Shown here: in pieces, positions 4,035-64,000 of the stretch
How the letters are laid out: every line of letters starts with the position of its first letter
Numbering within the stretch: the first letter of the stretch is position 1
Origin: Roseobacter sp. CCS2
GTDB taxonomy: Bacteria; Pseudomonadota; Alphaproteobacteria; Rhodobacterales; Rhodobacteraceae
Assembly (NCBI RefSeq): GCF_000169435.1
Contig: NZ_AAYB01000001.1
Coordinates: 434,001 to 498,000, forward strand
Direction of reading: 5' to 3'
Length of the DNA stretch: 64,000 nt
Notes under the pieces: model-generated
The model's database searches: none
Seen by the model: the letters and a program-made list of their open reading frames with translations, nothing else
What the model was told of the DNA's origin: nothing
Position numbers and translations under genes: made by a program

Positions 4035-4072
4035 GCCTTGATCTGCCGTACGGCTTGCCCCAAGAACAGAGC

Positions 4073-4717
4073 ATGAACGCCTACAGCTTTCTTTTCTGCC
4101 AAACACGATGCACCGCCCTGCCTTCCGGGGCGCTGCATTTACCCGATCACGATGTGCTATGTGTGTCCGACTTGCACTTAGGCAAATCCGAACGGATCGC
4201 ACGGCGCAGTGGCGTCATGTTACCACCTTACGAAGTCGTTGAAACGCTACAAAAGCTGGAAACGGACATTGCTGCGACAAATCCAGACCACATCATCTGT
4301 CTTGGCGATAGCTTTGATGATCTTGATGCTGCGATAAGTCTGAACGAAGATATGCGGCTTTGGCTGGCCCGTTTGCAAGCCGGCAAAACCTGGGTCTGGA
4401 TCGAAGGCAACCATGACCCCGGCCCGGTTGATATGGGTGGAACGCACAAAGCTGATATAACCGTGGGCACCCTGACGTTCCGGCATATCGCAACCAATGC
4501 AACGGCCGAAGTGTCAGGTCACTATCATCCGAAACATCGGGTCACCGGGCGTAGTCGTCCTGCTTTTCTATGTGATACGCAGCGGCTGATCATGCCCGCC
4601 TATGGTGCTTACACAGGCGGTCTTGCCAGTCATGCACCAGAGCTGCGTAAGCTCTTTAACGGACGGATAATGGCAATTCTGACCGGGCATAAGGCGATCC
4701 CCGTTCCGATCACTTAG
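4073..4717 (+). CDS. pdeM: Ligase-associated DNA damage response endonuclease PdeM
   Basis: This is a 214-residue calcineurin-type metallophosphoesterase. Metal-binding motifs are visible in order: [10 protein letters not shown] (D33, H35), GDSFDDL near 78, EGNHDPG near 112, and SGHYHPKH near 146. The family member PdeM is a Mn-dependent nuclease of the ligase-associated repair cluster. I prefer ATG 4073, giving the family-like start MNAY, over the TTG at 4031 that overlaps the helicase stop. The gene converges on folD with a four-base overlap of the two 3' ends. Assignment is firm on motifs and on the helicase neighbour. Confidence 0.88.
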
Positions 4718-5607
4718 ACGGTCAAACCCTCAGGTTCGGCCAAACCGTTTGCGCGACAACATGCAGTCAGCGTATTGGCCAGCAAGCAGGCAATCGTCAT
4801 TGGGCCAACACCGCCTGGGACAGGTGTGATTGCCCCTGCGACAGCCGCGCAGCTTTCATAGTCGCAATCGCCAACCAAACGCGTACCGCCATCTGGTTTA
4901 TCGATCCGATTGATACCCACATCAATCACAGTTGCACCCGGCTTGATCCAGTTACCTGTCACCATTTGCGGGCGCCCAACAGCGGCAACAACAATGTCGG
5001 CCTGCCGCACAACGGCCTCTAAATCCTGTGTCCGGCTATGTGCAATCGTCACCGTACAACTATCACCCAACAACAATTGCGCCATCGGCTTGCCAACGAT
5101 GTTGGACCGCCCAATCACCACAGCGTTCATACCGGACAGTGACCCGTGATGGTCACGCAGCATCATCAGACTGCCCAAAGGCGTGCAGGGCACCATGCTT
5201 TTCTGCCCGGTACCAAGCAGGCCCACATTCGAAATATGAAACCCATCCACGTCCTTGGCAGGATCAATGCTATTGATAACCAGATCACTGTCCAGATGGT
5301 CTGGCAAAGGCAGTTGTACCAATATTCCATGGACCGCAGGATCATTGTTCAACTGATCGATCAGTGCCAAAAGATCTGCCTCAGACGTTTGAACATCAAG
5401 TTTGTGTTCAATGGATTTCATGCCCACTTCGGCAGTCATCTTACCTTTGGACCGGACATAAACCTGACTTGCAGGATCTTCACCCACCAAAACCACAGCA
5501 AGGCCGGGTATGATACCCTGCTCTTCTTGCAGCTTGGCCACGCCTTTGGCGACTTGGCCACGTACTTTTGCGGCAAAGGCTTTTCCATCAATCACTGTCG
5601 CTGTCAT
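4714..5607 (-). CDS. folD: Bifunctional methylenetetrahydrofolate dehydrogenase/methenyltetrahydrofolate cyclohydrolase
   Basis: FolD interconverts 5,10-methylene-, 5,10-methenyl- and 10-formyl-tetrahydrofolate using NADP. The product is about 297 residues, near the usual 280-300. Visible motifs are the catalytic region [14 protein letters not shown] (residues ~50-63), GILVQLPLP near 93, [14 protein letters not shown] near 165, and the C-terminal [15 protein letters not shown] 5607 has GAGAAG six bases upstream; ATG 5613 is also possible but leaves no spacing. fhs lies upstream on the same strand, so the two enzymes of the C1-folate branch are probably cotranscribed, with an intervening GC-rich hairpin. 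Confidence 0.95.
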
Positions 5608-5631
5608 GGTCATCTTCTCATGTTCAAAAAT

Positions 5632-5646
5632 ACCTCCGCCGGAGGC
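5632..5646. repeat. Short intergenic palindrome (CCTCCGCCGGAGG)
   Basis: A 13-base inverted repeat lies in the fhs-folD gap. A closely related copy (TTCCGCCGGAGG) sits just upstream of the gene starting at 17741, so this may be a small dispersed element rather than a terminator. Confidence 0.4.
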
Positions 5647-5658
5647 AATCGGGAGGGT

Positions 5659-5695
5659 GGGCGGGGCGATGACGCAGTCAAGCGTCGCCCCGCCC
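5659..5695 (-). other. GC-rich hairpin between fhs and folD
   Basis: The arms GGGCGGGGCGA and TCGCCCCGCCC pair perfectly around a loop of about 15 bases immediately after the fhs stop. There is no T tract on the transcribed strand, so it looks more like an mRNA-stabilising or attenuating stem than a full terminator. Confidence 0.5.
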
Positions 5696-5701
5696 GATCA
5701 A

Positions 5702-7378
5702 TCAGAACAGGCCTTCGATTTCACCTGCGTCATTCAGCATAATCTGTTCAGCAGACGGCACACGCGGCAGGCCCGGCATCGTCATGATTTCACCGCAGAT
5801 CGCAACGATAAACCCAGCACCTGCGCTCAACCGCACTTCGCGCACCGGCACAGAGTGACCAGTTGGCGCACCGCGCAGGGTAGGATCCGTCGAAAAGCTA
5901 TACTGCGTTTTGGCCATGCAAACCGGCAAGTTGCCATATCCTTGCTCTTCCCACTTTTTCAACTGATCACGAATTTTGCTATCTGCAATCACCTCATCCG
6001 CGCGGTAGATACGTTTGGCAATCGTATCGATCTTATCGAAAAGGCTCATATCATCGGGATAGATCGGGGCAAAGTTGGCCTCACCCGCATCAGCAATCTG
6101 CGCCACACGAGTCGCCAGCTCTGTCGTGCCTTCAGACCCATGCGCCCAGTGCTTGCACAAAATCGCCTCGGACTCTTGGGTTGCGACATAGGCTTTGACC
6201 GCGTCAACCTCAGCATCCGTATCCGTGACAAAGTGGTTGATGGCGACCACGACAGGCACACCAAAGGATTTTACATTCTCAATATGACGGCCCAGGTTCG
6301 GGCAGCCTGCATTGACCGCCTCAACGTTCTCGGCCCCCAGGTCAGCTTTCGCAACACCGCCGTTCATTTTCATCGCACGTACTGTCGCAACAACCACAAC
6401 ACACGATGGGGCAAGACCAGCCTTGCGGCATTTGATATTCAGAAATTTCTCGGCACCCAAATCAGCACCAAAACCGGCCTCTGTCACAACATAATCTGCG
6501 AGTTTCAGCGCTGTGGTCGTCGCAGTGACCGAATTACAACCGTGCGCGATGTTCGCGAATGGGCCGCCGTGCACGAAGGCCGGATTATTCTCAAGCGTCT
6601 GTACAAGGTTCGGCTGCATCGCATCTTTCAACAGAACAGTCATCGCACCATCAGCCTTGATATCGCGGCAATAAACCGGGCTGCGGTCGCGCCGGTAAGC
6701 CACGATGATATCGCCAAGGCGCTTTTGCAGGTCATCCAGATTACGGGCCAAACACAGGATTGCCATGACCTCTGATGCGACAGTGATATCAAAACCGGCT
6801 TCACGGGGGAAACCATTGGCAACCCCACCCAAGGACGCTGTAATCTGGCGTAACGCGCGATCGTTCATATCCAGCACCCGGCGCCAAGCCACGCGGCGGA
6901 TATCAATTTCAAGCGCGTTGCCCCAATAGATGTGATTGTCGATCATCGCAGACAGCAGGTTGTGCGCAGATGTGATCGCGTGAAAGTCACCTGTAAAATG
7001 CAGGTTCATATCTTCCATAGGCACGACCTGCGCGTAACCACCACCGGCAGCCCCGCCCTTCATACCAAAGCACGGGCCAAGCGACGCTTCGCGAATACAA
7101 ATCGCAGCTTTCTTGCCAATCGCGTTCAGCCCGTCGCCCAAGCCCACTGTCGTGGTTGTTTTACCCTCACCCGCCGGTGTGGGGTTTATCGCAGTGACAA
7201 GGATCAGCTTGCCGTCTTCGCGATCTTGCACACTATCAATCAAGCGCTGGCTGACTTTTGCCTTGTCGTGGCCATAAGGCAGCAAATCATCACTGTCGAT
7301 GCCCAGCTTCGCTCCGATTTCCTGAATGGGGCGCTTTTGGGCACCACGAGCAATCTCGATATCAGACTTGTATTCCAT
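5702..7378 (-). CDS. fhs: Formate--tetrahydrofolate ligase
   Basis: This enzyme makes 10-formyl-tetrahydrofolate from formate, ATP and tetrahydrofolate. From ATG 7378 the product is 558 residues, the normal length of the family, and the start has AGGGAAG upstream; the longer open frame to 7420 is untranslated leader. The P-loop [11 protein letters not shown] (~67-77), the [18 protein letters not shown] block near 105 and the [10 protein letters not shown] block near 305 are all intact. Together with folD it feeds one-carbon units to purine, methionine or methylated-compound metabolism. Confidence 0.96.
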
Positions 7379-54384: not shown

Positions 54385-55743
54385 CTATCTATCCGGAAGG
54401 ATCAGTAGCGCAGTTTCGGGCACGAGCGCCACAAAGAACCACACGCTGATCAGTGCGATTAGGTACGGGATGATATAGCGCAGCAGTCTAAAGTACGGCA
54501 CGCCCGTCACACCCGAGGCCACATAAAGGTTGAGCCCATAGGGTGGCGTGACAAAACCGATGGATGCACCCACCAAGAACACAACCGCAAAGTGGATCGG
54601 ATCAATACCGACCGACGCCGCAATGGGTGCCAGAATAGGTGCCAAAATGATTGTCACCGGCAGGGATTCAAGGATCATCCCTGTGACAAATACAATCGCC
54701 ATTGACGTAAACAGCACCGCATAATAGCCACCCATGCCCGTCACAAAGTCACCGATAAAGTCCTTGGCGCCAAGCGATGACATCACTTGCTGCATCGCAA
54801 CTGACACGGCGATCAGTGGCACCAAGATGCCCGAGATCTGCGCAGAGCGCGATACGATTGATGGGATCTGCGGCACGGTAAAGCCTTCGACCACAAACAT
54901 TGATGCAAAGCTCTTTTGCTCGACCGGCATATCAGACGCGCTGCCCATGATCTTGTTCAATGGGTAGGACACCAAACCGATAAACACACAGAACCCCACG
55001 GTCACGCCCGCCGCCTCGGTTGGGGAGAAGCGACCGGTGTAAATGCCCCAAAGCACCAGACCGATAGCAAAGAAACCCAACCACGCACCGATGCCTGTCT
55101 TGATCATACGTGACACCGAAAGGCCGATCAGAACGCCCCAGCCATTGATAGTGCAGATGATAAACGCAGCAGTCATCATACCCAGAACCATCAGCGCGCC
55201 GGGAATGATACCTGCCACAAACAGGTCAGAGATCGGCAGGTTCAACAGGAAACCGTAAACGATGAAAATGATGGATGGCGGGATAATGATCCCCACCGTA
55301 CCACCCGCAGCAGCAGTCGCAGCTGAGAAGCGTTCGTCGTAGTTGCCCTTGACCATCTCAGGATGCAGCATGGAACCAATGGTTGCAGTTGTCGCCGAGT
55401 TGGAGCCAGAGATCGCCGCGAAAAGGCCACAGGCCGCAATAGATGCCATCGCCAGACCGCCCCGCAGCCAACCCAGGACCGAGTAGGCAAAATCTGACAA
55501 TCGTCGGGCAATACCAGATTGATTAATCAAGTCCCCCGTCAGAATGAACAGCGGCATCGCCAGCAGCGCAAAGCCCTTGCTGAACACGTTGATCAATTCG
55601 TTGCCCGTGTTTGCCAACGGCAGATCAATGACAAAGCTGATGCCGATCACCCAGTAAAAGATAACCAGCAAGACAGGTGTGCCGAGCATGAAGAAAAGCG
55701 TCACACCCAATGAAATCAGCGTAATCCAAGTACTGTCAGCCAT
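54385..55743 (-). CDS. dctM: TRAP transporter large permease (DctM type)
   Basis: The 452-residue membrane protein has about twelve helices and the family signatures MLGTPVLLVIFYWVIGISF near the start, PLFILTGDLINQSGIARRLSDF (~60-81) and NSATTATIGSMLHPEM near 115. DctM is the ion-coupled permease subunit of tripartite transporters driven by sodium or proton gradients. It overlaps dctQ by one base. Confidence 0.92.
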   Translation of the reverse strand: MADSTWITLISLGVTLFFMLGTPVLLVIFYWVIGISFVIDLPLANTGNELINVFSKGFALLAMPLFILTGDLINQSGIARRLSDFAYSVLGWLRGGLAMASIAACGLFAAISGSNSATTATIGSMLHPEMVKGNYDERFSAATAAAGGTVGIIIPPSIIFIVYGFLLNLPISDLFVAGIIPGALMVLGMMTAAFIICTINGWGVLIGLSVSRMIKTGIGAWLGFFAIGLVLWGIYTGRFSPTEAAGVTVGFCVFIGLVSYPLNKIMGSASDMPVEQKSFASMFVVEGFTVPQIPSIVSRSAQISGILVPLIAVSVAMQQVMSSLGAKDFIGDFVTGMGGYYAVLFTSMAIVFVTGMILESLPVTIILAPILAPIAASVGIDPIHFAVVFLVGASIGFVTPPYGLNLYVASGVTGVPYFRLLRYIIPYLIALISVWFFVALVPETALLILPDR

Positions 55744-56411
55744 CAGACATCCCCCCCGATCACAGCTTGCTTGATGATCTGATCACCGGATTTGAAGTTC
55801 CGCCAATCCTCGATCCAATTGCCGATCACACGGCCGGACATAAAGGTAAAAGCGATGGGCACGGTGATATAGAACCACCATTTCATCACGTCATCGACGC
55901 CATCGACCAATTGGAAGTTGTCGGCTGATAGTGCCGTAAACCGCAGCGATGTCGTAATCGCGATCCAGCAGAAACCGAACCAAAGCACCGCATCCAACGT
56001 CAGCGTGGCCATCTGCCCCGCAGGCGGCATCTTGGAACGGAATTCACTAAAACTAAGGTGTGTGCGCAGTTTGACATTATAGGCGCAGGCAAACCATGCC
56101 ATGACCATGAACAGGAACGGCGGCACCGTTGTTGACCCGGACCACTGGTGCGAGAACACGAACCGGTCAATGACGCCCCAGCAGATAATACCGGCAATAA
56201 TCAGATACATAACAACGGCTGTTGTGCGTTCAAAATGGCGCTCAACAAAAGGAACATAGGTATAGAGCAGGTGAACAAGATAGCCGCCCACAAATGTAAA
56301 AACAAAACAGAACAACCACATGCCATCCGCATCGAATGCCTGTCGCTTTTCCCATGAACTGCCCGAGAACATGGCCGGAATAACGGCCACCGCTTCAGCG
56401 AGTATCGACAT
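55743..56411 (-). CDS. dctQ: TRAP transporter small permease (DctQ type)
   Basis: The 222-residue product has about five hydrophobic segments, more than the usual four, and fits the small TRAP membrane subunit in position and size. Its role is to scaffold DctM. The start is at 56411; the gene lies downstream of a strong hairpin that separates it from dctP. Confidence 0.85.
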   Translation of the reverse strand: MSILAEAVAVIPAMFSGSSWEKRQAFDADGMWLFCFVFTFVGGYLVHLLYTYVPFVERHFERTTAVVMYLIIAGIICWGVIDRFVFSHQWSGSTTVPPFLFMVMAWFACAYNVKLRTHLSFSEFRSKMPPAGQMATLTLDAVLWFGFCWIAITTSLRFTALSADNFQLVDGVDDVMKWWFYITVPIAFTFMSGRVIGNWIEDWRNFKSGDQIIKQAVIGGDV

Positions 56412-56473
56412 CTAGGTCTCCCCCCTCATGTGTCAGAATACCGCTACTATGGAGCGGTCTTTTTGCGTTGAAA

Positions 56474-56505
56474 AGGGCCGGCCGAACTCCCACTCGGCCG
56501 GCCCT
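56474..56505 (-). terminator. Hairpin between dctP and dctQ
   Basis: AGGGCCGGCCGA and TCGGCCGGCCCT form a 12-base perfect stem with an eight-base loop between dctP and dctQ. There is a weak T-run on the minus strand (AAAGACC region reads as TTTT upstream), so partial termination or 3'-end protection of dctP mRNA is likely. Confidence 0.7.
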
Positions 56506-56532
56506 ATTCCTACGGGTCAGATGTGGGCTTTA

Positions 56533-57765
56533 TCAGCCCTTCCACCAACGACGTGGTTCAACATTCTCTGGCAAGGTATCTGCCGAAATTGTGCGGACCT
56601 CGTCATAGATTTCCTGATACGTGTCCAAACCACCGGACCAGCCGTTCAGGCGCTCGCGCCAATCTTCCCAGAGTGCCGGTTGGTACTCAGGTGAACACAT
56701 TTCTTCGGCTTTCTTGATCTCTTCAGGCGATAGGAACGCGTTGCGCACACCGTGTTCTGCAAAGATTGTGCCTGGCAGCTGTGGATCAGATTGACCAACG
56801 GTGCGGATCAGCGCCACTTCGTTGGCAGCCTGCACGTGGGTCTGCGCCCAATACGCAGATTCCATAACGGCATCCTGCAGATATCCTTCTAGGCTATCAA
56901 AGACCGAAGCAGACATCGCCGTGTGCTCTGTCCCGCAGAAGAAGTTCAGGTGAACCGATTGCGATACAACCGGTGCCATGTTTGCATACGCCACCGCAGA
57001 CGCCCATGTTTCCGCACCATCAATCAGGCCCTGCTTCAGGCCATCAAGCGTTTCTTCCCACGCAACAGGCACAGGATTCAGGTTCAGCGCTTCCATCGCG
57101 ATACGGCCCAGCTGCGTACCCGTGACACGGTTCTTTGTACCAGCCAGATCTTCAACAGAGGTCACCAGCGGTTTGTCGTCAAAGTTCAGACCCATCTGGA
57201 TACCGCGCAATTCAGCATGGCTGAACAGGAACTTCAAACCATGACGACGCTCATAGGGTTCACGCAGCAGACGCATGGACGCAGGTGAATATAGGAAGTG
57301 GTATTGGTCTGCCCGGTTCCGGAACATATACGCATAGTCCAGAACGTTCAGATAAGGTGCACCACCGGCAGAGTTTTGCGTGGAAGCCGCAAAGATATCT
57401 GTGATGCCCTGCTGTGTTTTCTCAACACAGGATGTCTGGCCACAGATCTGGTTGTCGCCGATAAACTCGATCCGAATCTCACCATCGGTTCGTGCTTCCA
57501 GGTCACGTGCAAATTCCAACGCGCCAGCGCGTTCGATCAGCAGGTTGCGGGCGTTAAAGCCGGATGCACCGAACTTGAGGTTATACTTCGCTTCTTTCGA
57601 AAACCGGCGCTCATAGGTCGATTCAGCCGCAGACGCCAGGTTTGCAAGGCTCATCGCTCCCCCGAATGTCCCCGCCGCCATCAGCGTAGAGCTCATTCCG
57701 TATTGCCCTGCCAGCTTGAACAGGTCCCGCCGCGAAATACGGCTGAGTTTATCTCCAATCATCAT
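56533..57765 (-). CDS. dctP: TRAP transporter substrate-binding protein (DctP type)
   Basis: The 410-residue precursor has a twin-arginine leader (SRRDLFKLAGQYG, ~11-23), cleaved near ASAAE (~48), then a DctP/SBP7-type domain with KFGASGFNARNLLIERAGALEFARDLEARTDGEIRIEFIGDNQICG and the family arginine in TGTQLGRIAMEAL. ATG 57765 or 57762 follows GGAGG. It heads the dctPQM-iclR operon and lies divergent from the GMC oxidoreductase, so the ligand is likely that enzyme's substrate or precursor. Confidence 0.9.
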   Translation of the reverse strand: MMIGDKLSRISRRDLFKLAGQYGMSSTLMAAGTFGGAMSLANLASAAESTYERRFSKEAKYNLKFGASGFNARNLLIERAGALEFARDLEARTDGEIRIEFIGDNQICGQTSCVEKTQQGITDIFAASTQNSAGGAPYLNVLDYAYMFRNRADQYHFLYSPASMRLLREPYERRHGLKFLFSHAELRGIQMGLNFDDKPLVTSVEDLAGTKNRVTGTQLGRIAMEALNLNPVPVAWEETLDGLKQGLIDGAETWASAVAYANMAPVVSQSVHLNFFCGTEHTAMSASVFDSLEGYLQDAVMESAYWAQTHVQAANEVALIRTVGQSDPQLPGTIFAEHGVRNAFLSPEEIKKAEEMCSPEYQPALWEDWRERLNGWSGGLDTYQEIYDEVRTISADTLPENVEPRRWWKG

Positions 57766-57790
57766 GTTTCCTCCCATGTTGTCGATTATT

Positions 57791-57805
57791 GAGACTTATA
57801 GTTTC
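57791..57805. promoter_or_regulatory. Inverted repeat between dctP and GMC oxidoreductase gene
   Basis: GAGACT-TAT-AGTTTC is an imperfect 6-3-6 inverted repeat, 26-40 bases upstream of dctP in the 90-base divergent gap. A related AGTCT half-site follows nearby. It is a candidate IclR operator for both directions. Confidence 0.4.
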
Positions 57806-57855
57806 AAAAAAGCCTAGTATAGTCTGGTCGTTCTGCATAGAGTTTTTTCAAATAA

Positions 57856-59466
57856 ATGGAGAACGATGCCGTGGAAGCCGATTTTATCGTCGTAGGCGCA
57901 GGGTCTGCCGGGTGCGTCCTTGCCAACCGTCTGAGTGCAAATCCAGCGCATAAGGTGATCCTGCTTGAGGCTGGTGGAAAAGACAACAATCCTTGGATTC
58001 ACATCCCCGTCGGGTATTTCAAGACGATCCACAATCCCAAGGTCGATTGGTGCTATAAAACAGAACCTGATCCGGGCTTGAACGGACGGTCGATTGAATG
58101 GCCACGCGGTAAGGTCTTGGGCGGATCGTCGTCGTTGAACGGCCTCCTTTATGTACGCGGTCAATCCCAAGACTACGACCGCTGGCGTCAAATGGGCAAC
58201 ACCGGTTGGGGTTGGGATGACGTTTTGCCGCTGTTCAAGCGGTCCGAGAATAATGAACGCGGCGCTGATGCGTATCATGGGAACGAGGGCGGATTATCTG
58301 TTTCCAACATGCGCATTCAACGCCCTATTACTGATGCTTGGGTCGCAGCGGCGCAAGCCGCCGGGTACAAGTTTAACCCCGACTACAACAGCGCAGATCA
58401 AGAAGGCGTTGGTTTCTTCCAGCTTACCGCGCGCAATGGTCGCCGGTGCAGTTCTGCTGTCGCCTTTCTTAATCCGGTCAAGTCCCGCGAGAACCTTCAG
58501 ATTATCACCCACGCGCAGGTCGAGAAGGTGATCATTGAAGGCAAGCGCGCGACAGGTGTGACCTACACGGACCGTAGCGGGACCCTGCAAACGGTCAAAG
58601 CCCGCAAAGAAATCGTTCTGTCGGGCGGCGCGATCAACTCTCCCCAACTCCTGATGCTGTCCGGCATCGGTGAAGCCGCGCAATTGGCTGAAAATGAGAT
58701 CGCAGTTGTGCAGCACTTGCCCGCTGTGGGCAAGAATATGCAAGACCACTTGCAGGCGCGCCTTGTCTACAAATGCAACGAACCGACGTTGAATGACGAA
58801 GTCAGCTCACTTTTCGGGCAAGCCAAGATCGGCCTCAAATACCTGATGTTCCGCGCAGGACCGATGACGATGGCGGCCAGCCTTGCCACCGGTTTTCTGA
58901 AAACGCGCGAAGATGTAGAAACGCCGGACATACAGTTTCACGTCCAGCCGCTCTCAGCCGAAAACCCCGGCAAAGGGGCTGACAAATTCTCTGCCTTCAC
59001 GATGTCGGTCTGTCAGTTGCGGCCTGAAAGTAAGGGTGAAATCAGGTTGCAGGGCCATGATCCCAAGGCATATCCGAAAATCATCCCGAATTATCTCTCA
59101 ACCGAAACCGACTGCCGCACGGTCGTCGCAGGCGTGAACATCGCCCGCAAGATTGCGCGCCACGCGCCGCTGACGTCCAAGATCAGTGAAGAGTTTCGGC
59201 CACATGCCAGCCTGCCAATGGACGATTATGACGCAACGCTGGATTGGGCGCGCAACAATACCGCGTCGATTTATCACCCCACTGGCACCTGCAAGATGGG
59301 TCAGGGCAAAGAGGCGGTCGTCGACGAACGGTTGCGGGTGCACGGGATTGATGGGCTGCGGGTCGCGGATTGTTCGATTATGCCAGAAATCGTGTCAGGG
59401 AACACGAATGCGCCCGCGATTATGATCGGCGAGAAGGCCTCGGATTTGATTTTGGAAGATGCATAG
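57856..59466 (+). CDS. GMC family oxidoreductase (choline/alcohol dehydrogenase-like)
   Basis: The 536-residue flavoenzyme has the FAD motif DFIVVGAGSAGCVLANRLS (~9-27), GMC signature 1 GKVLGGSSSLNGLLYVRGQ near 83, signature 2 SGGAINSPQLLMLSGIG near 257 and the active-site region STGTCKMG-like YHPTGTCKMG near 474, with NTNAPAIMIGEKASDLI at the end. GMC enzymes oxidise alcohols such as choline or polyethylene glycol; the substrate here is not set. Divergent TRAP genes suggest that it processes the imported compound. Confidence 0.93.
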   Translation: MENDAVEADFIVVGAGSAGCVLANRLSANPAHKVILLEAGGKDNNPWIHIPVGYFKTIHNPKVDWCYKTEPDPGLNGRSIEWPRGKVLGGSSSLNGLLYVRGQSQDYDRWRQMGNTGWGWDDVLPLFKRSENNERGADAYHGNEGGLSVSNMRIQRPITDAWVAAAQAAGYKFNPDYNSADQEGVGFFQLTARNGRRCSSAVAFLNPVKSRENLQIITHAQVEKVIIEGKRATGVTYTDRSGTLQTVKARKEIVLSGGAINSPQLLMLSGIGEAAQLAENEIAVVQHLPAVGKNMQDHLQARLVYKCNEPTLNDEVSSLFGQAKIGLKYLMFRAGPMTMAASLATGFLKTREDVETPDIQFHVQPLSAENPGKGADKFSAFTMSVCQLRPESKGEIRLQGHDPKAYPKIIPNYLSTETDCRTVVAGVNIARKIARHAPLTSKISEEFRPHASLPMDDYDATLDWARNNTASIYHPTGTCKMGQGKEAVVDERLRVHGIDGLRVADCSIMPEIVSGNTNAPAIMIGEKASDLILEDA

Positions 59467-59476
59467 GAGGCACGCC

Positions 59477-59815
59477 ATGAGACCACAACAGTCCATGCAA
59501 ACGTTTGACTGGTTCAACTGGCTTGCCCTTGTTGCCGTTGGTGTTTTTCTTGGCTTAGCGATTGATGGCCTCGTGGACCTTGCGACCGTAAGCGCATGGG
59601 GCAGTATCATCATGATACTGGGGCTATCCGCTGGGGGGCTAGTTTTTTACTTCTTGATCGAGCGCGTTATTAATTTCATTTCCATCGGGCGTTTCTCAGA
59701 GCCGCAACAACTTCAAAAACCGCGCAAGCCCTTGGCGCTTTATTTTGCCCTGCCTATCGGCATCATCATCGGCGTGATCGGAGCACAGTTTGGTTTGGCA
59801 GAGCTAATTCTTTAG
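59477..59815 (+). CDS. Small membrane protein, unknown function
   Basis: The 112-residue product has three predicted membrane helices (~13-34, 42-64, 85-108) and a basic loop SEPQQLQKPRKPLA between the second and third. I recognise no family. ATG 59477 has AGGAGG seven bases upstream, and it starts ten bases after the GMC gene stop, so it is the second gene of that operon. A function with the oxidoreductase or the transporter is only positional. Confidence 0.75.
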   Translation: MRPQQSMQTFDWFNWLALVAVGVFLGLAIDGLVDLATVSAWGSIIMILGLSAGGLVFYFLIERVINFISIGRFSEPQQLQKPRKPLALYFALPIGIIIGVIGAQFGLAELIL

Positions 59816-59904
59816 CGGTCAAGTCGGCGAGCCAGGTCATATCCGCGCCGCGTGACACCACATACTGTCAACTCCACCCTTGACCCACCCTTCGGAATCG
59901 CAAA

Positions 59905-60105
59905 CAGTACCCGTGATGGTTCCCAAAGCGCCGAAAATGCGTCTGGGATGAAAAGGGAATACGGTGAGGAAGAGCCAAAGCGCGCCAAATCCGTAACTGC
60001 CCCCGCAACTGTGAGCGGCGAGCGACCCCGATGATCACCACTGAGCAAACGCTCGGGAAGGGATCGGGCAAGCAGCGACCCGCGAAGTCAGGAGACCTGC
60101 CATCA
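59905..60105 (+). promoter_or_regulatory. Cobalamin riboswitch
   Basis: The conserved elements of the class occur in order: GGGAATACGGTG (59955-59966), CCGTAACTGCCCCCGCAACTG (59991 onward), CACTG with GGGAAGG (60039-60062), and the terminal B12-box region AGTCAGGAGACCTGCC (60087-60102). It lies about 130 bases upstream of the DUF1636 gene and most likely represses the operon when adenosylcobalamin is plentiful. The exact 5' end is approximate. Confidence 0.93.
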
Positions 60106-60237
60106 AAGGGCGTCGAAATACGCCAAAGAAACTCAAACCGGGCGGGGTGTCCGGAGCGGAGATCATGATGGTGAAACAGGCTCTATTGGCCACACAAACA
60201 TGCCGTTCCAATTCCTCGCTTATGCGCGGAGGGCTGC

Positions 60238-60645
60238 ATGGACCGGACCACACAACATCGAATAACTGTCTGCACATCGTGTAAACATAAAGGGACGGAT
60301 TGCCGCCCGGGTTACGAACTGATCGAAAAGCTGCGCCGCGCCATTGCGGCAGCGGGCGATAGCATTTCCGAAAACTTTGCCATTTCTGGCGTCGCATGTA
60401 TGGCAGGATGTGACCGTCCCTGCACGGTTGCCTATCATGGCACCCAGAAGGCAACATATCTCTTCGGCGATATGACACCCGAAGATGACATCGACGATCT
60501 GGTCGATTTCGCCAAACAATACGCCGTTTTACATGATGGTTGGTGTTCATCCGTCGACCGCCCCGGCAAGCTGCGCAAATCCACCTTGGCGCGCATCCCT
60601 GCCGCGATGATCGCACTCGAAGACAGCAAGGCGCTGGCATCATGA
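60238..60645 (+). CDS. DUF1636 protein (thioredoxin-like [2Fe-2S] type)
   Basis: The 135-residue product has a CTSCKHKGTDCRPG motif (~12-25) and CMAGCDRPC (~54-62), the paired cysteine pattern of DUF1636, which is related to thioredoxin-like [2Fe-2S] ferredoxins. Function is not established; family members lie in cobalamin- or cobalt-linked operons. GGAGG precedes the ATG, and its stop overlaps the ABC ATPase start (ATGA). Confidence 0.88.
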   Translation: MDRTTQHRITVCTSCKHKGTDCRPGYELIEKLRRAIAAAGDSISENFAISGVACMAGCDRPCTVAYHGTQKATYLFGDMTPEDDIDDLVDFAKQYAVLHDGWCSSVDRPGKLRKSTLARIPAAMIALEDSKALAS

Positions 60646-61424
60646 GCAGCGCACATCTGAGCGTGACAGACGTTAGCTGGCGTCCCCATAAACGCGCCGC
60701 CCCCGTCCTGCGCACCACCAGTTTTGAGGTTCAAAAGGGTCATGTCCTTGGCGTTGTCGGTCCCAACGGGGCAGGCAAATCAACCCTGCTACGCCTACTT
60801 TATCGCTTTCAGGTACCCACAACAGGCCACGTGAAAATCAACGGCACTGACATCTGGAAAATCCCCCCCCGTAAGGTGGCGCAACACGTCGCGGCTGTCC
60901 TACAGGAACAGGCGGCCGCCTTCGGTTTAAGCGTGCGTGAGATCATCGCGCTGGGACGCACCCCATATCGTCGCACCTACGGCAGCGCTGATATGCGCGA
61001 CTTGGACGTGATCAAAAATGTGATGGCGATGCTGGACCTGACCGGTCTTGAGCATCGTGATTTCGGCACCCTGTCCGGCGGCGAACGGCAACGGGTCATG
61101 GTGGCGCGCGCACTGGCGCAGGAACCTGAAATCTTGATCCTGGATGAGCCCACAAACCACCTTGATATCCGCCACCAGCTTGAGGTGCTTGCCTTGATCC
61201 GACAGCTTGACCTGACCATCGTGGTGTCCTTGCATGACCTGAACATGGCCGCAGATATCTGTGACAATATTCTGGTGCTTGAAGACGGGCATCCGCGCGG
61301 CTTTGGCACGCCTGACAGCCTGCTGACCGAGGTATTGGTATCCAACACCTTCCGTGTCGATGCCCGCCGCGAAAAGCTGGCGCCGAGCGATACAAATCAC
61401 CTGTCTTTCCACCTTCCGCATTAG
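60642..61424 (+). CDS. ABC transporter ATP-binding protein, BtuD/FecE-like
   Basis: The 260-residue product has Walker A GPNGAGKST (~39-47), signature LSGGERQRVMVA near 145, Walker B ILILDEPTNHLD near 163 and the H-loop VVSLHDLNMA near 198, typical of iron-siderophore/B12 importers. It sits in the riboswitch operon, so a corrinoid or cobalamin-related ligand is likely. BtuFCD gene order differs from enteric bacteria. Confidence 0.9.
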   Translation: MSSAHLSVTDVSWRPHKRAAPVLRTTSFEVQKGHVLGVVGPNGAGKSTLLRLLYRFQVPTTGHVKINGTDIWKIPPRKVAQHVAAVLQEQAAAFGLSVREIIALGRTPYRRTYGSADMRDLDVIKNVMAMLDLTGLEHRDFGTLSGGERQRVMVARALAQEPEILILDEPTNHLDIRHQLEVLALIRQLDLTIVVSLHDLNMAADICDNILVLEDGHPRGFGTPDSLLTEVLVSNTFRVDARREKLAPSDTNHLSFHLPH

Positions 61425-61435
61425 AGACCGTCATA

Positions 61436-62371
61436 ATGAAACTGACCCTGACAACCGCACTCTTTACCCTCGCGGCCGGCACTGCCTTGGCCCAAACCAC
61501 CGTGCAAAGCTGCGATCGTGAAGTGACCTTTGACGCGCCACCACAAGCCGCGATCTCCCATGATATCAACCTGACCGAGATGATGCTTGTCCTCGGCCTG
61601 ACGGACCATATGGTTGGCTACACCGGTATTTCCGGCTGGAACAAACTGGACGCTGAAATGCGTGCCGGCGTTGATCAATTGCCGGAACTGGCAGCGGAAT
61701 ACCCATCGAAAGAAGTGCTGATCGGCGCGGATGCCGATTTCTACTTTGCAGGCTGGAACTATGGCATGCGCGTGGGTGGTGAGCTTACACCAGAAACGCT
61801 CGCGCCTTTCGGTATTCAGGTCTATGAACTGACTGAAAGCTGTATCCATATCAGTGAAAAAGGCGCGGCTTCGATGGACGACATGTACAACGACTTGCGC
61901 AATCTTGGCGCGATCTTTGACGTCGAAGACCGGGCCGAAGCATTGATCACAAACTATCAAATAGACCTCGCCGCATTCTTGGCCAGCCAACCTGCCCTGC
62001 CCGCCGCCCCGCGCGTCTTTGTCTATGACAGCGGCGAAGACGCACCCTTTACCGCGGGTCGTTACGCGATGCCCAATGCGCTGATCGAGGCGGCAGGCGG
62101 CGTCAATATCATGAACGACTTTGAGAAAAGTTGGGCCACTGTCGGCTGGGAAGCTGTCGTTGAACGCAACCCCGAAATCATCGTTATCGTGAACTACGGC
62201 GAAGTGACTGCGGAACAAAAGCGCGATTTCATGATGTCCAACCCGGCTTTTGCAAACCTCGACGCGGTCAGGAACGACCGCTTTGTTGTGTTGGACTATG
62301 TCGAGGCCACACCGGGGCCGCGCAATGTTCAGGCGGTCAAAACGCTGGCCGCTGCGTTTCGTGCCGACTAG
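61436..62371 (+). CDS. Periplasmic substrate-binding protein, BtuF-like
   Basis: The 311-residue precursor has a signal peptide (cleavage after LAQ, ~21) and the fold II (Fe3+-siderophore/B12) binding pattern: ISHDINLTEMMLVLGLTDHMVGYTG near 40, ALIEAAGGVNIMNDFEKSWATVGWEAVVERNPEIIVIV near 215. It follows the ATPase by 11 bases and precedes the permease by three. Cobalamin or corrinoid binding is inferred from the riboswitch. Confidence 0.88.
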   Translation: MKLTLTTALFTLAAGTALAQTTVQSCDREVTFDAPPQAAISHDINLTEMMLVLGLTDHMVGYTGISGWNKLDAEMRAGVDQLPELAAEYPSKEVLIGADADFYFAGWNYGMRVGGELTPETLAPFGIQVYELTESCIHISEKGAASMDDMYNDLRNLGAIFDVEDRAEALITNYQIDLAAFLASQPALPAAPRVFVYDSGEDAPFTAGRYAMPNALIEAAGGVNIMNDFEKSWATVGWEAVVERNPEIIVIVNYGEVTAEQKRDFMMSNPAFANLDAVRNDRFVVLDYVEATPGPRNVQAVKTLAAAFRAD

Positions 62372-62374
62372 CGG

Positions 62375-63430
62375 ATGGACCAAGCCGACAGACAAATCAC
62401 CACCCTTCGCCCGCACAAGGCCCGGCTGCTGCTGACCTTTGGGCTGGGGTTTGTGACACTGTTTCTGTCTTTGTCGGTTGCAGTCAGCGTTGGCGCGGTT
62501 TCGGTGCCGCTGACAACCGTTTGGGGTGTTCTGATCAATAAGATTTCCCCTGACTTTATCGCGCAAAACTGGTCTGCGGGACGCGAAGCAATCGTTTGGG
62601 ATATCCGTTTTCCCCGCGCGATCCTTGCTTGCCTCGTCGGTGCAGGGCTTGCTCTTGTCGGCGCGAGCCTGCAAGCGGTGACGCGCAACCCACTCGCCGA
62701 CCCGCATTTACTGGGAATTTCGGCGGGCGGTGCGTTTGGTGCAATCCTCGCCCTGCTTCACACCGGGCTTTTCATTGGTCTGCTAACCGTGCCTTTCATG
62801 GCGTTTCTTGGTGCGTTGGGCGCTACACTCATTGTTCTGGGCGTTTCGCAATTCGCCGCCGCAACCAGCGCGGACCGTCTTGTCCTGGCTGGCGTCGCGG
62901 TTTCTTTCATCGTGATGTCCGGCGCGAATGTACTGATCTTCCTGGGCGACCCGCGTGCTGTGCATACGGTCGTTTTCTGGATGCTTGGCGGCCTTGGCCT
63001 CGCGCAGTGGGGACAGTTGATGTATCCTCTGGTGATCTTGATCGCTTGCGGCACCTTCCTTTGGGCGAACGCCAGCAACCTCAACGCGATGACCGTAGGC
63101 GATGAAACTGCATCTACACTGGGCATCCCGGTCGGTCGGTTCCGGCTGACCGTCTTTGTTGTGGGTGCGATGATCACCGGCGTTATGGTCGCCTTTTCTG
63201 GCATCATCGGTTTTGTTGGGCTGATGATCCCGCATATCGTGCGGTTGATCGTCGGTGGAGATTACAAACGCGTGCTGCCGGTCTCGGCCCTTTGCGGTGC
63301 GATATTTCTGCTTTGGGCTGATATCTTCGCGCGCACCGTTATGGCGCCCGATGACATACCCATCGGGATTGTCACAGGGTTGATCGGTGGTGTGTTCTTT
63401 GTGTGGTTACTGCGCCGAAACCCGGTCTAG
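62375..63430 (+). CDS. ABC transporter permease, BtuC/FecCD family
   Basis: The 351-residue membrane protein has about ten helices and family signatures RFPRAILACLVGAGLALVGASLQAVTRNPLADPHLLGISAGGAFGA (~72-118) and FSGIIGFVGLMIPHIVRLIVGGDYKRVLPVSALCGA near 273. The usual BtuC/FecD features are intact. Its stop overlaps that of the convergent nrdJ in a CTAG tetranucleotide. Confidence 0.92.
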   Translation: MDQADRQITTLRPHKARLLLTFGLGFVTLFLSLSVAVSVGAVSVPLTTVWGVLINKISPDFIAQNWSAGREAIVWDIRFPRAILACLVGAGLALVGASLQAVTRNPLADPHLLGISAGGAFGAILALLHTGLFIGLLTVPFMAFLGALGATLIVLGVSQFAAATSADRLVLAGVAVSFIVMSGANVLIFLGDPRAVHTVVFWMLGGLGLAQWGQLMYPLVILIACGTFLWANASNLNAMTVGDETASTLGIPVGRFRLTVFVVGAMITGVMVAFSGIIGFVGLMIPHIVRLIVGGDYKRVLPVSALCGAIFLLWADIFARTVMAPDDIPIGIVTGLIGGVFFVWLLRRNPV

Positions 63431-64000
63431 CCGCATTTGGAATAACCGCAGGACCCGCAGGTCATACACCCTTCAACCATGCGCAATTCGTACGACCCGC
63501 ACGAAGAACAGGCCTTCCCGCGCGGCCCGCCATTGATCGCCACCACGTCAGCTTGTGGATCAGCCTTAAGGCCCATCCCTTCACCGGCCAAGAACCCGGT
63601 TGAAACCATGTGTTTTTCGATCACGCCACCAATCGCCGCAAGGATCGAAGGCACATATTTGCCCTGCATCCATGCGCCGCCACGCGGGTCAAACACCGCT
63701 TTCAGTTCTTCGACCACGAAAGAGACATCGCCACCGCGCCGGAACACAGCCGAAATCATCCGGGTAAGCGCAACAGTCCACGCGAAATGTTCCATATTCT
63801 TGGAGTTGATGAAGACCTCAAAAGGCCGCCGGTGTCCGGCAATCACCAGATCATTGACTGTGATGTAAATGGCATGTTCGCTATCCGGCCATTTCAGCTT
63901 GTAGGTCGCCCCATCCAGTTCCTGCGGACGGTCCAGAGGTTCTGACATATAAACGACTTCAGCACCTTCGTCTTCGGTCCGGACTTGGGCGGGAACCTCT
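63427..64000 (-). CDS. nrdJ: Vitamin B12-dependent ribonucleotide reductase, C-terminal part (5' end outside window)
   Basis: The frame stays open to the right edge, so this is a partial gene of at least 191 residues; the ATG at 63948 is internal. The visible C-terminal region has MEHFAWTVALTRMISAVFRRGG, GGAWMQGKYVPSILAAIGGVIEKH and a terminal cysteine pattern CSSCGSYELRMVEGCMTCGSCGYSKCG that relays reducing power in class II NrdJ enzymes. It makes deoxyribonucleotides with adenosylcobalamin. The neighbouring riboswitch-controlled importer fits that cofactor need. Confidence 0.9.
   Translation of the reverse strand, partial: EVPAQVRTEDEGAEVVYMSEPLDRPQELDGATYKLKWPDSEHAIYITVNDLVIAGHRRPFEVFINSKNMEHFAWTVALTRMISAVFRRGGDVSFVVEELKAVFDPRGGAWMQGKYVPSILAAIGGVIEKHMVSTGFLAGEGMGLKADPQADVVAINGGPRGKACSSCGSYELRMVEGCMTCGSCGYSKCG

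Follow-up and report, generated by a model that had tools for sequence, protein, structure and literature searches.

When a B12-sensing RNA stands in front of an ABC importer, does the importer carry the vitamin or cobalt? This question is raised by an operon near the end of the window, by which we mean the whole stretch of 64,000 nucleotides of Roseobacter sp. CCS2 DNA that was analyzed. Most likely, the RNA controls an importer of cobalt and not of the vitamin. The features concerned are as follows.

59900..60118, + strand: cobalamin (AdoCbl-type) riboswitch aptamer, covariance-model match to RF00174
60214..60232, + strand: predicted hairpin pairing the GGAGG Shine-Dalgarno sequence of DUF1636 (local fold)
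60238..60645, + strand: DUF1636 protein (PF07845), 135 aa, predicted thioredoxin-like ferredoxin fold, with Cys12, Cys15, Cys54, Cys58, and Cys62
60642..61424, + strand: ABC transporter ATPase (PF00005, ABC_tran, 116 bits)
61436..62371, + strand: periplasmic substrate-binding protein (SBP) of the FecB/BtuF fold (PF01497, Peripla_BP_2, 80 bits)
62375..63430, + strand: FecCD-family permease (PF01032, 304 bits)
63427..64000, - strand: C-terminal part of nrdJ (TIGR02504), running beyond the window end; a neighbor outside the module

Organization and control of the operon

A preliminary description of this DNA had proposed a cobalamin riboswitch followed by genes for DUF1636, an ABC ATPase, a BtuF-like protein, and a FecCD permease, and profile matches bear out this gene set, all on the + strand downstream of the riboswitch. 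DUF1636 scored 111.2 bits against PF07845 (gathering threshold 31.6), the ATPase reading frame shares its first 4 bases with the end of the DUF1636 frame, and the SBP has a signal-like segment at its N-terminus, as judged by eye. The aptamer is real and strong (RF00174, 128.8 bits against a gathering threshold of 31.5, E = 4.8e-32, model positions 1-189 of 189), but it starts at about 59900 and not at 59905. It was the sole Rfam match at gathering level within the window, and no second cobalamin riboswitch was found in the genome.

The hairpin at 60214..60232, in whose local fold all five Shine-Dalgarno bases are paired (5/5), is likely the expression platform and would act by translation control; it was also examined by alignment of 14 leaders. 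A scan of the leader for a terminator-like site or promoter found none, and the whole 161-nt leader showed no extra stability over shuffles (z = -0.92). For comparison, 117 distinct related loci were assembled from 124 fetched loci (44 from a set of 196 genomes of the order, plus the best 80 of 577) after removal of 7 duplicates, and 116 of them had at least 450 bases upstream. A riboswitch motif preceded 102 of these 116 operons, mostly called by a core motif, with the Rfam model applied to the window, the genome, and a few others. At least 4 of the 5 Shine-Dalgarno bases were paired in 62 of 81 leaders with both riboswitch and DUF1636, a count made without shuffle control.

The label BtuF-like is loose. 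The SBP does belong to the FecB/BtuF superfamily, but its score against the BtuF family was 43 bits (cut-off 234), and its best NCBIfam match was TIGR03868, a "putative F420-0" SBP, at 185 bits. Its AlphaFold2 model (pLDDT 83) gave 4mlz, 4n01, and 5cr9 as the best Foldseek matches, and the nearest BtuF, of the same superfamily, ranked 26th. Assignment as an F420-0 importer was rejected, all three subunits being below the cut-offs of TIGR03868/9/73 (185/392, 257/437, and 250/372 bits, respectively).

Distribution of the importer and its cargo

The genome of Roseobacter sp. CCS2 has a de novo cob cluster and, of three types of cobalt importer (this one, CbtA, and CbiM), only this one was found in it. 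Among the 196 genomes of the order, in which every genome not listed as positive was counted as having no match, a close SBP (66-100% identity) occurred in 44, all of them CbiC+ (44/44, p = 4e-5; this and the following p-values overstate the significance, the genomes being related). Close SBPs occurred in 0 of the 37 CbiC- genomes, and in four genera with SBP+ species, all 5 CbiC- species were without one. More distant SBP relatives (27-29%) were present in two CbiC- genomes.

Within the 159 CbiC+ genomes, the SBP and CbtA were anticorrelated (both in 6, the SBP alone in 38, CbtA alone in 53, neither in 62; odds ratio 0.19, p = 1e-4). The relation was weaker when more distant SBP groups were added (odds ratio 0.35, p = 0.004) or when CbtA and CbiM were pooled (p = 0.0065), and no anticorrelation was seen with CbiM (21/23/51/64 in the same order; odds ratio 1.15, p = 0.72). 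Outside the order, we checked CbiC for 48 of the 80 named loci, chosen by us, and did not detect it in 8 of the 48 SBP-bearing genomes (small single-cell or metagenome assemblies), where cobalt cannot serve corrin synthesis. These 8 genomes and the result for CbiM speak against cobalt, but on the distribution as a whole it is most likely the cargo.

Zur-like boxes in related loci

In close relatives of the importer, a zinc sensor appears to take the place of the riboswitch or to act alongside it. By motif, a Zur-like box was present in 27 of the 116 distinct related loci: in 11 of the 14 riboswitch-less loci (SAR116 and others) and, together with the riboswitch, in 16 of the 102 riboswitch loci, compared with 13 of 1479 control windows. 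Because the matrix was trained on sites first seen in the riboswitch-less loci, in mixed registers, the independent test consists of the 102 riboswitch loci only, and a single group (L134, L138, L145, L154, L156, L162, and L169; Roseibium and Labrenzia) accounts for 7 of the 16 boxes found there. We take the palindrome to be a Zur box from the E. coli consensus, with the neighboring zinc genes as a second basis: the SAR116 operons adjoin Zur-like, ZnuB-like, and COG0523/ZigA-like genes, and zigA flanks the operon of a Klebsiella pneumoniae plasmid relative.

Both the boxes and these neighbors would suit a general importer of zinc and cobalt (a divalent metal or a metallophore) whose site takes both metals alike and whose sensor is zinc, B12, or both depending on lineage. 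A further parallel is Pseudomonas PA2911-2914, described in the available parts of two reports as Zur-regulated and as importing pyochelin-cobalt, but not pyochelin-zinc, under zinc starvation (PMC11481552, PMC13083405). This printed Zur-controlled system thus carries cobalt, as far as those parts tell, and a zinc importer would hardly be expected to have a B12 riboswitch as its sole control element, as most operons do. Moreover, the boxes are motif matches only; none was found in the window at up to 2 mismatches, and the pattern gave 2 matches in the Roseobacter genome at 2 mismatches compared with 12 for the reversed control, which is no support here. We consider such a dual-metal importer unlikely.

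DUF1636 as a candidate cobalt-handling ferredoxin

The preliminary description had noted a [2Fe-2S]-type cysteine pattern in DUF1636, and both conserved cysteines and fold agree. C15, C58, and C62 were invariant in 47 sequences and C12 and C54 were conserved in at least 90%, forming CxxC and CxxxC motifs; a more distant group is without C62, and a few copies (L051, L063, L067, and L077) have lost core cysteines. The AlphaFold2 model (pLDDT 85.5) best matched 9jn8 (E = 8e-10), a DUF1636 protein of R. capsulatus titled thioredoxin-like ferredoxin, and the Aquifex [2Fe-2S] ferredoxin 1f37 (E = 1e-4), with 1m2a also matched. In these respects, DUF1636 has the appearance of a [2Fe-2S] ferredoxin. 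A literature search for PF07845 or COG5469 found no papers, nor was a paper on the 9jn8 structure found; the accessible text of PMC4520260 (2015) had already predicted the thioredoxin-like fold. The preliminary description was right that no published work gives DUF1636 a role with corrinoids, but where the protein occurs links it to the handling of cobalt and the synthesis of B12. DUF1636 was present in 159 of the 196 genomes, including 158 of the 159 CbiC+ ones (158 shared, 2 discordant). The Roseobacter genome has a second DUF1636 elsewhere, with the cob cluster. In a non-random set of 70 DUF1636 loci, from which ABC-adjacent loci were excluded (the 30 best-scoring of an order-wide search and 40 picked by hand), a cob gene was nearby in 70/70, beside cobW-cobN or in cob clusters; the order riboswitch-DUF1636-cobW was seen in 51/70 and cbtA-DUF1636-cobW in 7/70. 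A search for relatives in viral contigs found none.

DUF1636 may reduce or hand over imported cobalt, a reading that we put at somewhat under an even chance. Outside the order, DUF1636 was kept beside the importer in each of the 8 genomes without detected CbiC (8/8), which points to metal handling and not corrin chemistry. It was missing from 31 of the 116 related operons and, since some copies also lack core cysteines, it is not indispensable to the importer. At two loci (L094 and L098), a 249-aa protein occupies its place; this protein had no Pfam match (L098 tested) and, by eye, ends in a ferredoxin-like cysteine motif.

CobR is a flavoprotein reductase. As a substitute for CobR, DUF1636 could instead donate the electron that turns cob(II)yrinate into cob(I)yrinate ahead of adenosylation, and would accompany the importer merely as a member of the B12 regulon. 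Its near-perfect tracking of CbiC, its neighbors cobW, cobN, cobO, and cobD, and its ferredoxin fold all fit such a donor, but its retention by the importer where CbiC was not detected does not, and we regard this role as rather unlikely. It is also quite unlikely that the cysteines bind Co or Zn directly, as in a metallochaperone or sensor with no Fe-S cluster in vivo. The abundance of cysteines in CxxC and CxxxC motifs, the adjoining metallochaperone gene cobW, and a reviewer's remark in the available part of PMC4520260 about the metal-binding annotation of the family are consistent with direct binding, whereas the best structural matches, including a DUF1636 protein itself, are [2Fe-2S] ferredoxins.

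Corrinoid import and the nrdJ neighbor

Salvage of cobalamin or cobinamide in the manner of BtuFCD, in which DUF1636 would reduce or decyanate the corrinoid brought in, would explain the upstream riboswitch and the BtuF/FecB superfamily of the SBP. Two kinds of related locus also fit: in SAR116 locus L173, whose genome has no detected CbiC, the salvage genes cobT-cobS are convergent to the operon, which would suit corrinoid salvage too, and L083 and L224 have a TonB receptor inside the operon. According to the available part of PMC7689651, however, TonB-dependent transport is the route by which B12 and other large molecules pass the outer membrane. The Roseobacter genome gave neither a match to a TonB-dependent receptor barrel (PF00593, E <= 1e-8) nor one to a BtuB-like protein (TIGR01779, 1e-20), and PF00593 was absent from 25 of the 44 importer genomes, some TonB receptor being present in the other 19. 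BtuB-like TIGR01779 matches, none above the curated cut-off, occurred in 36 of the 37 CbiC- genomes of the order, from which the close SBP is absent; 20 loci of CbiC- genomes showed the gene order riboswitch-receptor, and in 17/20 the FecCD permease was a different one, at 33-40% identity. Furthermore, the L083 receptor was not among the BtuB-like matches of its genome, and Zur-like control in SAR116 would be odd for a vitamin importer. Together with the host's own cob cluster and the confinement of the SBP to CbiC+ genomes in the order, these observations speak against corrinoid supply, and we judge vitamin import very unlikely.

The convergent neighbor was correctly recognized as nrdJ: its whole product (760 aa) scored 588 bits against TIGR02504 NrdJ_Z (cut-off 400), on the - strand from 63427. 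The proposed supply-and-use unit of operon and nrdJ, suggested by convergent ends that overlap by 4 bases, was largely refuted by the neighborhood survey and is extremely improbable, as nrdJ adjoins just 5 of the 117 related loci, and these five belong to the nearest relatives (some loci stop shortly after the permease gene, so a few cases were possibly missed).

Proposed model

We return to cobalt import. When adenosylcobalamin is plentiful, the riboswitch would stop translation of the operon, as the aptamer and the Shine-Dalgarno hairpin suggest. When B12 is short, cobalt would enter the periplasm, presumably via porins, the SBP would capture Co2+ or a small cobalt complex, and the FecCD permease and the ATPase would bring cobalt into the cytosol. 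There, DUF1636 might help convert it into a form usable by the CobW/CobN insertion machinery, the simplest chemistry being to reduce Co(III) complexes by one electron, which yields labile Co(II).

According to an old idea, marine microbes swap cobalt for zinc. We tentatively suggest, as a rather doubtful extension, that the operon belongs to a widespread marine alphaproteobacterial module in which cobalt is one currency with two uses and reduction by DUF1636 frees it from inert Co(III) ligands. The importer would be wired to the riboswitch in hosts whose cobalt goes into B12, to Zur in hosts that make no B12 and use cobalt in place of zinc, and to both in hosts for which both uses matter. Such dual wiring would open the swap to genetic testing. 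If our reading is right, a set of genes named for B12, F420, or iron carries cobalt, ideas on which marine organisms trade the vitamin and which gather the metal will change, and DUF1636 can be placed, in a way open to test, at the cobalt step of aerobic B12 synthesis.

Comparison with known systems

The operon is probably a cobalt-acquisition operon that works like CbtJKL of Sinorhizobium meliloti (pSymB) without being orthologous to it. CbtJKL likewise combines a BtuF-like SBP, a FecCD permease, an ATPase, and a cobalamin riboswitch, and the available text of PMC7689651 describes it as an ABC system for cobalt, BtuF-like and controlled by a B12 riboswitch; that of PMC12239276 also reports a cobalt importer. 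The pSymB set in locus L223, which we infer to be CbtJKL from its place and content, has an upstream Rfam riboswitch of 119.6 bits. Orthology was rejected on the low identities (SBP 28%, permease 39%, ATPase 41%), the different gene order (SBP-permease-ATPase, with no DUF1636), and a permease lying outside the clade of the window permease in a tree given without branch support values. The vitamin B12 importer BtuCDF belongs to the same ABC superfamily, and in the CbiC- relatives it too stands downstream of a cobalamin riboswitch, but the window importer differs from it in having no BtuB partner, a low BtuF score, a separate permease clade, and the opposite phylogenetic distribution. PA2911-PA2914 of Pseudomonas aeruginosa is also a FecB-type ABC system for cobalt import, linked to zinc starvation; likened here by description and not by sequence, it comes with a TonB receptor and a metallophore, and the accessible parts of its reports mention neither a B12 riboswitch nor DUF1636. 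DUF1636 resembles the ferredoxins of Aquifex (1f37/1m2a) and R. capsulatus (9jn8) in fold and cysteine pairs, but differs from thioredoxin-like [2Fe-2S] ferredoxins in that its operon partners are cobalt genes. CbtA(B) and CbiMNQO also serve B12-linked cobalt uptake but are of protein families unrelated to the window importer, and CbtA can directly precede DUF1636-cobW.

Riboswitch, operon and neighbouring genes

The preliminary description had proposed a corrinoid supply operon headed by a cobalamin riboswitch and convergent to nrdJ, the gene of a B12-dependent reductase. The layout was borne out: nrdJ is convergent, and the riboswitch, the only one of its class found by a genome scan, is followed by four plus-strand genes for DUF1636, an ABC ATPase, a FecB/BtuF-type substrate-binding protein (SBP) and a FecCD permease, whose ends overlap or almost touch.

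59900-60118, + strand, cobalamin riboswitch (128.8 bits), before the four-gene set

Because no terminator-like site was found in the operon leader and the GGAGG ahead of the DUF1636 start is paired within a local hairpin in the predicted fold, the riboswitch likely controls translation of the operon. Among riboswitch-DUF1636 leaders, of which 14 were aligned, at least four of the five GGAGG bases were paired in 62 of 81 folded (duplicates included; a count without shuffle control). Upstream (55743-59815) lie DctQ/DctP TRAP genes, a GMC oxidoreductase gene near choline dehydrogenase models, and a gene for a 118-aa hydrophobic protein with no family match. The best NCBIfam matches of the riboswitch-controlled transporter (61436-63430) were the "F420-0" models TIGR03868 and TIGR03869, and the F420 label of this family may merit re-examination.

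Distribution and cargo of the importer

Judged by its genes, Roseobacter sp. CCS2 is a B12 producer: 150 kb from the operon lie CobM-, CobJ-, CobI-, CobL-, CobH- and CbiX-like ORFs together with a second DUF1636 and CobD-, CobW-, CobN- and CobO-like ORFs (named by eye; CbiC/CobH confirmed as PF02570). Since the genome carries these genes, the view that the operon imports the vitamin needs testing. Among 196 genomes drawn from the order, 159 have the corrin-synthesis marker CbiC, and close SBPs (66-100% identity; 45 places) occur in 44 genomes, all CbiC-positive (Fisher p 4e-5; this and the other distribution p-values are inflated by relatedness of the genomes). With more distant SBP groups included, the figure is 58 of 58. 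In four genera holding SBP-positive species, the five CbiC-negative species lack the SBP. BtuB-like receptors (TIGR01779 at 1e-20, with no match above the curated cut-off) show the opposite distribution, being present in 36 of 37 CbiC-negative versus 29 of 159 CbiC-positive genomes.

The known cobalt importer CbtA is distributed like the SBP (59 CbiC-positive and 2 CbiC-negative genomes), and among CbiC-positive genomes the two avoid each other (6 with both, 38 with SBP alone, 53 with CbtA alone, 62 with neither; OR 0.19, p 1e-4). No such avoidance was seen between SBP and CbiM, another cobalt importer (OR 1.15, p 0.72). Neither CbtA nor CbiM was found in the genome of the window. SBP, CbtA and CbiM are all missing from 18 CbiC-positive genomes, so further importers presumably exist.

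Cobalamin is described as requiring a TonB-dependent outer-membrane receptor (PMC7689651). No PF00593 barrel was found at 1e-8 in the genome of the window; among the 44 importer genomes, 25 have none and 19 have one to five. Co2+ or a small cobalt complex, unlike cobalamin, would need no PF00593-type receptor. The restriction of close SBPs to CbiC-positive genomes and the missing barrel thus speak against corrinoid uptake, and the reading of this ordinary-looking finding changes: we consider a cobalt importer quite probable.

Riboswitch loci of CbiC-negative genomes served as a control group, 17 of 20 containing a FecCD permease 33-40% identical to that of the window, in most cases on the far side of a receptor gene. 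The control permeases form a group of their own in a tree of 65 permeases (branching given without support values), and the window permease groups first with orthologues from the 44 genomes and named loci. Next to this clade come Paracoccus denitrificans and L083, a related locus, then group 2 with a Klebsiella plasmid protein, and then group 3.

DUF1636

DUF1636 occurs in 159 of the 196 genomes, 158 of them together with CbiC, and only G016 and G051 are discordant; G051 also lacks a cobalamin riboswitch at a stricter filter. In 70 surveyed DUF1636 loci (30 best-scoring and 40 picked), none beside ABC genes, the order was riboswitch-DUF1636-cobW in 51, cbtA-DUF1636-cobW in seven and DUF1636-cobW in one, and in 11 DUF1636 lay in a cobJILH-cbiX/cobD cluster. 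Its AF2 model (pLDDT 85.5) matched an Aquifex [2Fe-2S] ferredoxin and 9jn8, a record titled as a thioredoxin-like ferredoxin of Rhodobacter capsulatus, a fold proposed earlier for DUF1636 (PMC4520260).

We tentatively read DUF1636 as a cobalt-linked ferredoxin and suggest, at somewhat less than even chances, that its role is to supply an electron and so turn incoming cobalt, arriving as a Co(III) complex, into Co(II) that can be exchanged and used by CobW. The action would be rather like that of FhuF-type [2Fe-2S] proteins, which release siderophore-bound iron. A role before the corrin ring is suggested because DUF1636 is kept with the importer in all eight CbiC-negative genomes found among the named SBP carriers examined. 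The importer operon includes DUF1636 at 85 of 116 distinct loci; against the role stand its absence from the other 31 and the loss of core Cys residues in some copies.

Several related loci vary at this position. A protein of about 249 aa with a C-terminal ferredoxin-like Cys pattern (by eye) lies between riboswitch and distant SBP in L094 (3298-4047) and L098 (3345-4091) and possibly stands in for DUF1636; a Pfam search of the L098 protein gave no match. A 92-aa ORF at the DUF1636 position in L070 (2953-3231, SBP orientation) resembles a worn copy and also had no Pfam match, and DUF1636 of L057 (2844-3269) has its second Cys motif duplicated in tandem (12 residues).

A possible second wiring in relatives

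CbiC was found in 40 of 48 named SBP-bearing genomes. The other eight (six SAR116 assemblies plus one each from another alphaproteobacterium and a betaproteobacterium) are each just 1.5-2.2 Mb and thus possibly incomplete. No riboswitch was found in their loci (six by Rfam scan, L161 and L174 by motif), and in all eight a palindrome like TGTTATAACATAACA, which closely resembles the Zur core of E. coli, directly precedes DUF1636. In L144 it adjoins a Fur-family gene whose best NCBIfam match is Zur (85 bits, under cut-off), and ZnuB-, Zur- and COG0523-like genes lie nearby in L173. Scored with a matrix built from such sites, 16 of 102 riboswitch operons have a Zur-like box ahead of them (control windows, 13 of 1479; p 1e-12). 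So do 11 of 14 riboswitch-less operons, most of these being training sites. Roseibium has the box downstream of the riboswitch and ahead of the gene; in L120 it precedes the riboswitch. None was found in the window. L170, a locus with a Zur-like box whose assembly lacks CbiC, has metE (3878-6106), which encodes cobalamin-independent methionine synthase, after the importer.

Because Zur-controlled pyochelin-cobalt import under zinc starvation is reported for Pseudomonas (PMC11481552; PMC13083405), cobalt would be the cargo that best accounts for the two wirings together. A double B12/zinc wiring appears to exist in relatives of the importer; it is new to us, no open-licence literature was found in which Zur and a B12 riboswitch are joined on a single importer, and it merits a bench test.

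Comparison with plasmid relatives and CbtJKL

In L224 (Paracoccus denitrificans plasmid 1) and L083, the order is riboswitch-TonB receptor-ATPase-SBP-permease, a siderophore-type receptor occupying the place of DUF1636. A flavin amine oxidase gene separates SBP and permease in L075 (4965-6311) and L079 (4945-6294; PF01593). A relative with an SBP of 45% identity lies on Klebsiella pneumoniae plasmid NZ_CP047635 (L226, 4522-9529). A Zur-like box and a COG0523 fragment precede it, zigA follows, and the locus has no riboswitch. Hundreds of plasmid records from Klebsiella carry this relative (556 of 790 matched), and cbtJKL is named among K. pneumoniae metal genes (PMC8151138).

CbtJKL of S. meliloti, described as lying under a cobalamin riboswitch, was initially thought to be a cobalamin transporter owing to the likeness of CbtJ to BtuF but proved to carry cobalt (PMC7689651; PMC12239276). 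We take the single riboswitch-SBP-permease-ATPase set in 30 kb of pSymB to be CbtJKL. Its permease falls outside the window clade in the tree, and a true relative of the window importer (62%), with riboswitch, DUF1636 and all three ABC genes, lies on another S. meliloti plasmid (L225). The SBP, permease and ATPase of the pSymB set share just 28, 39 and 41% identity with their window counterparts, its gene order differs and it lacks DUF1636. The window importer is predicted to work like CbtJKL without being its orthologue.
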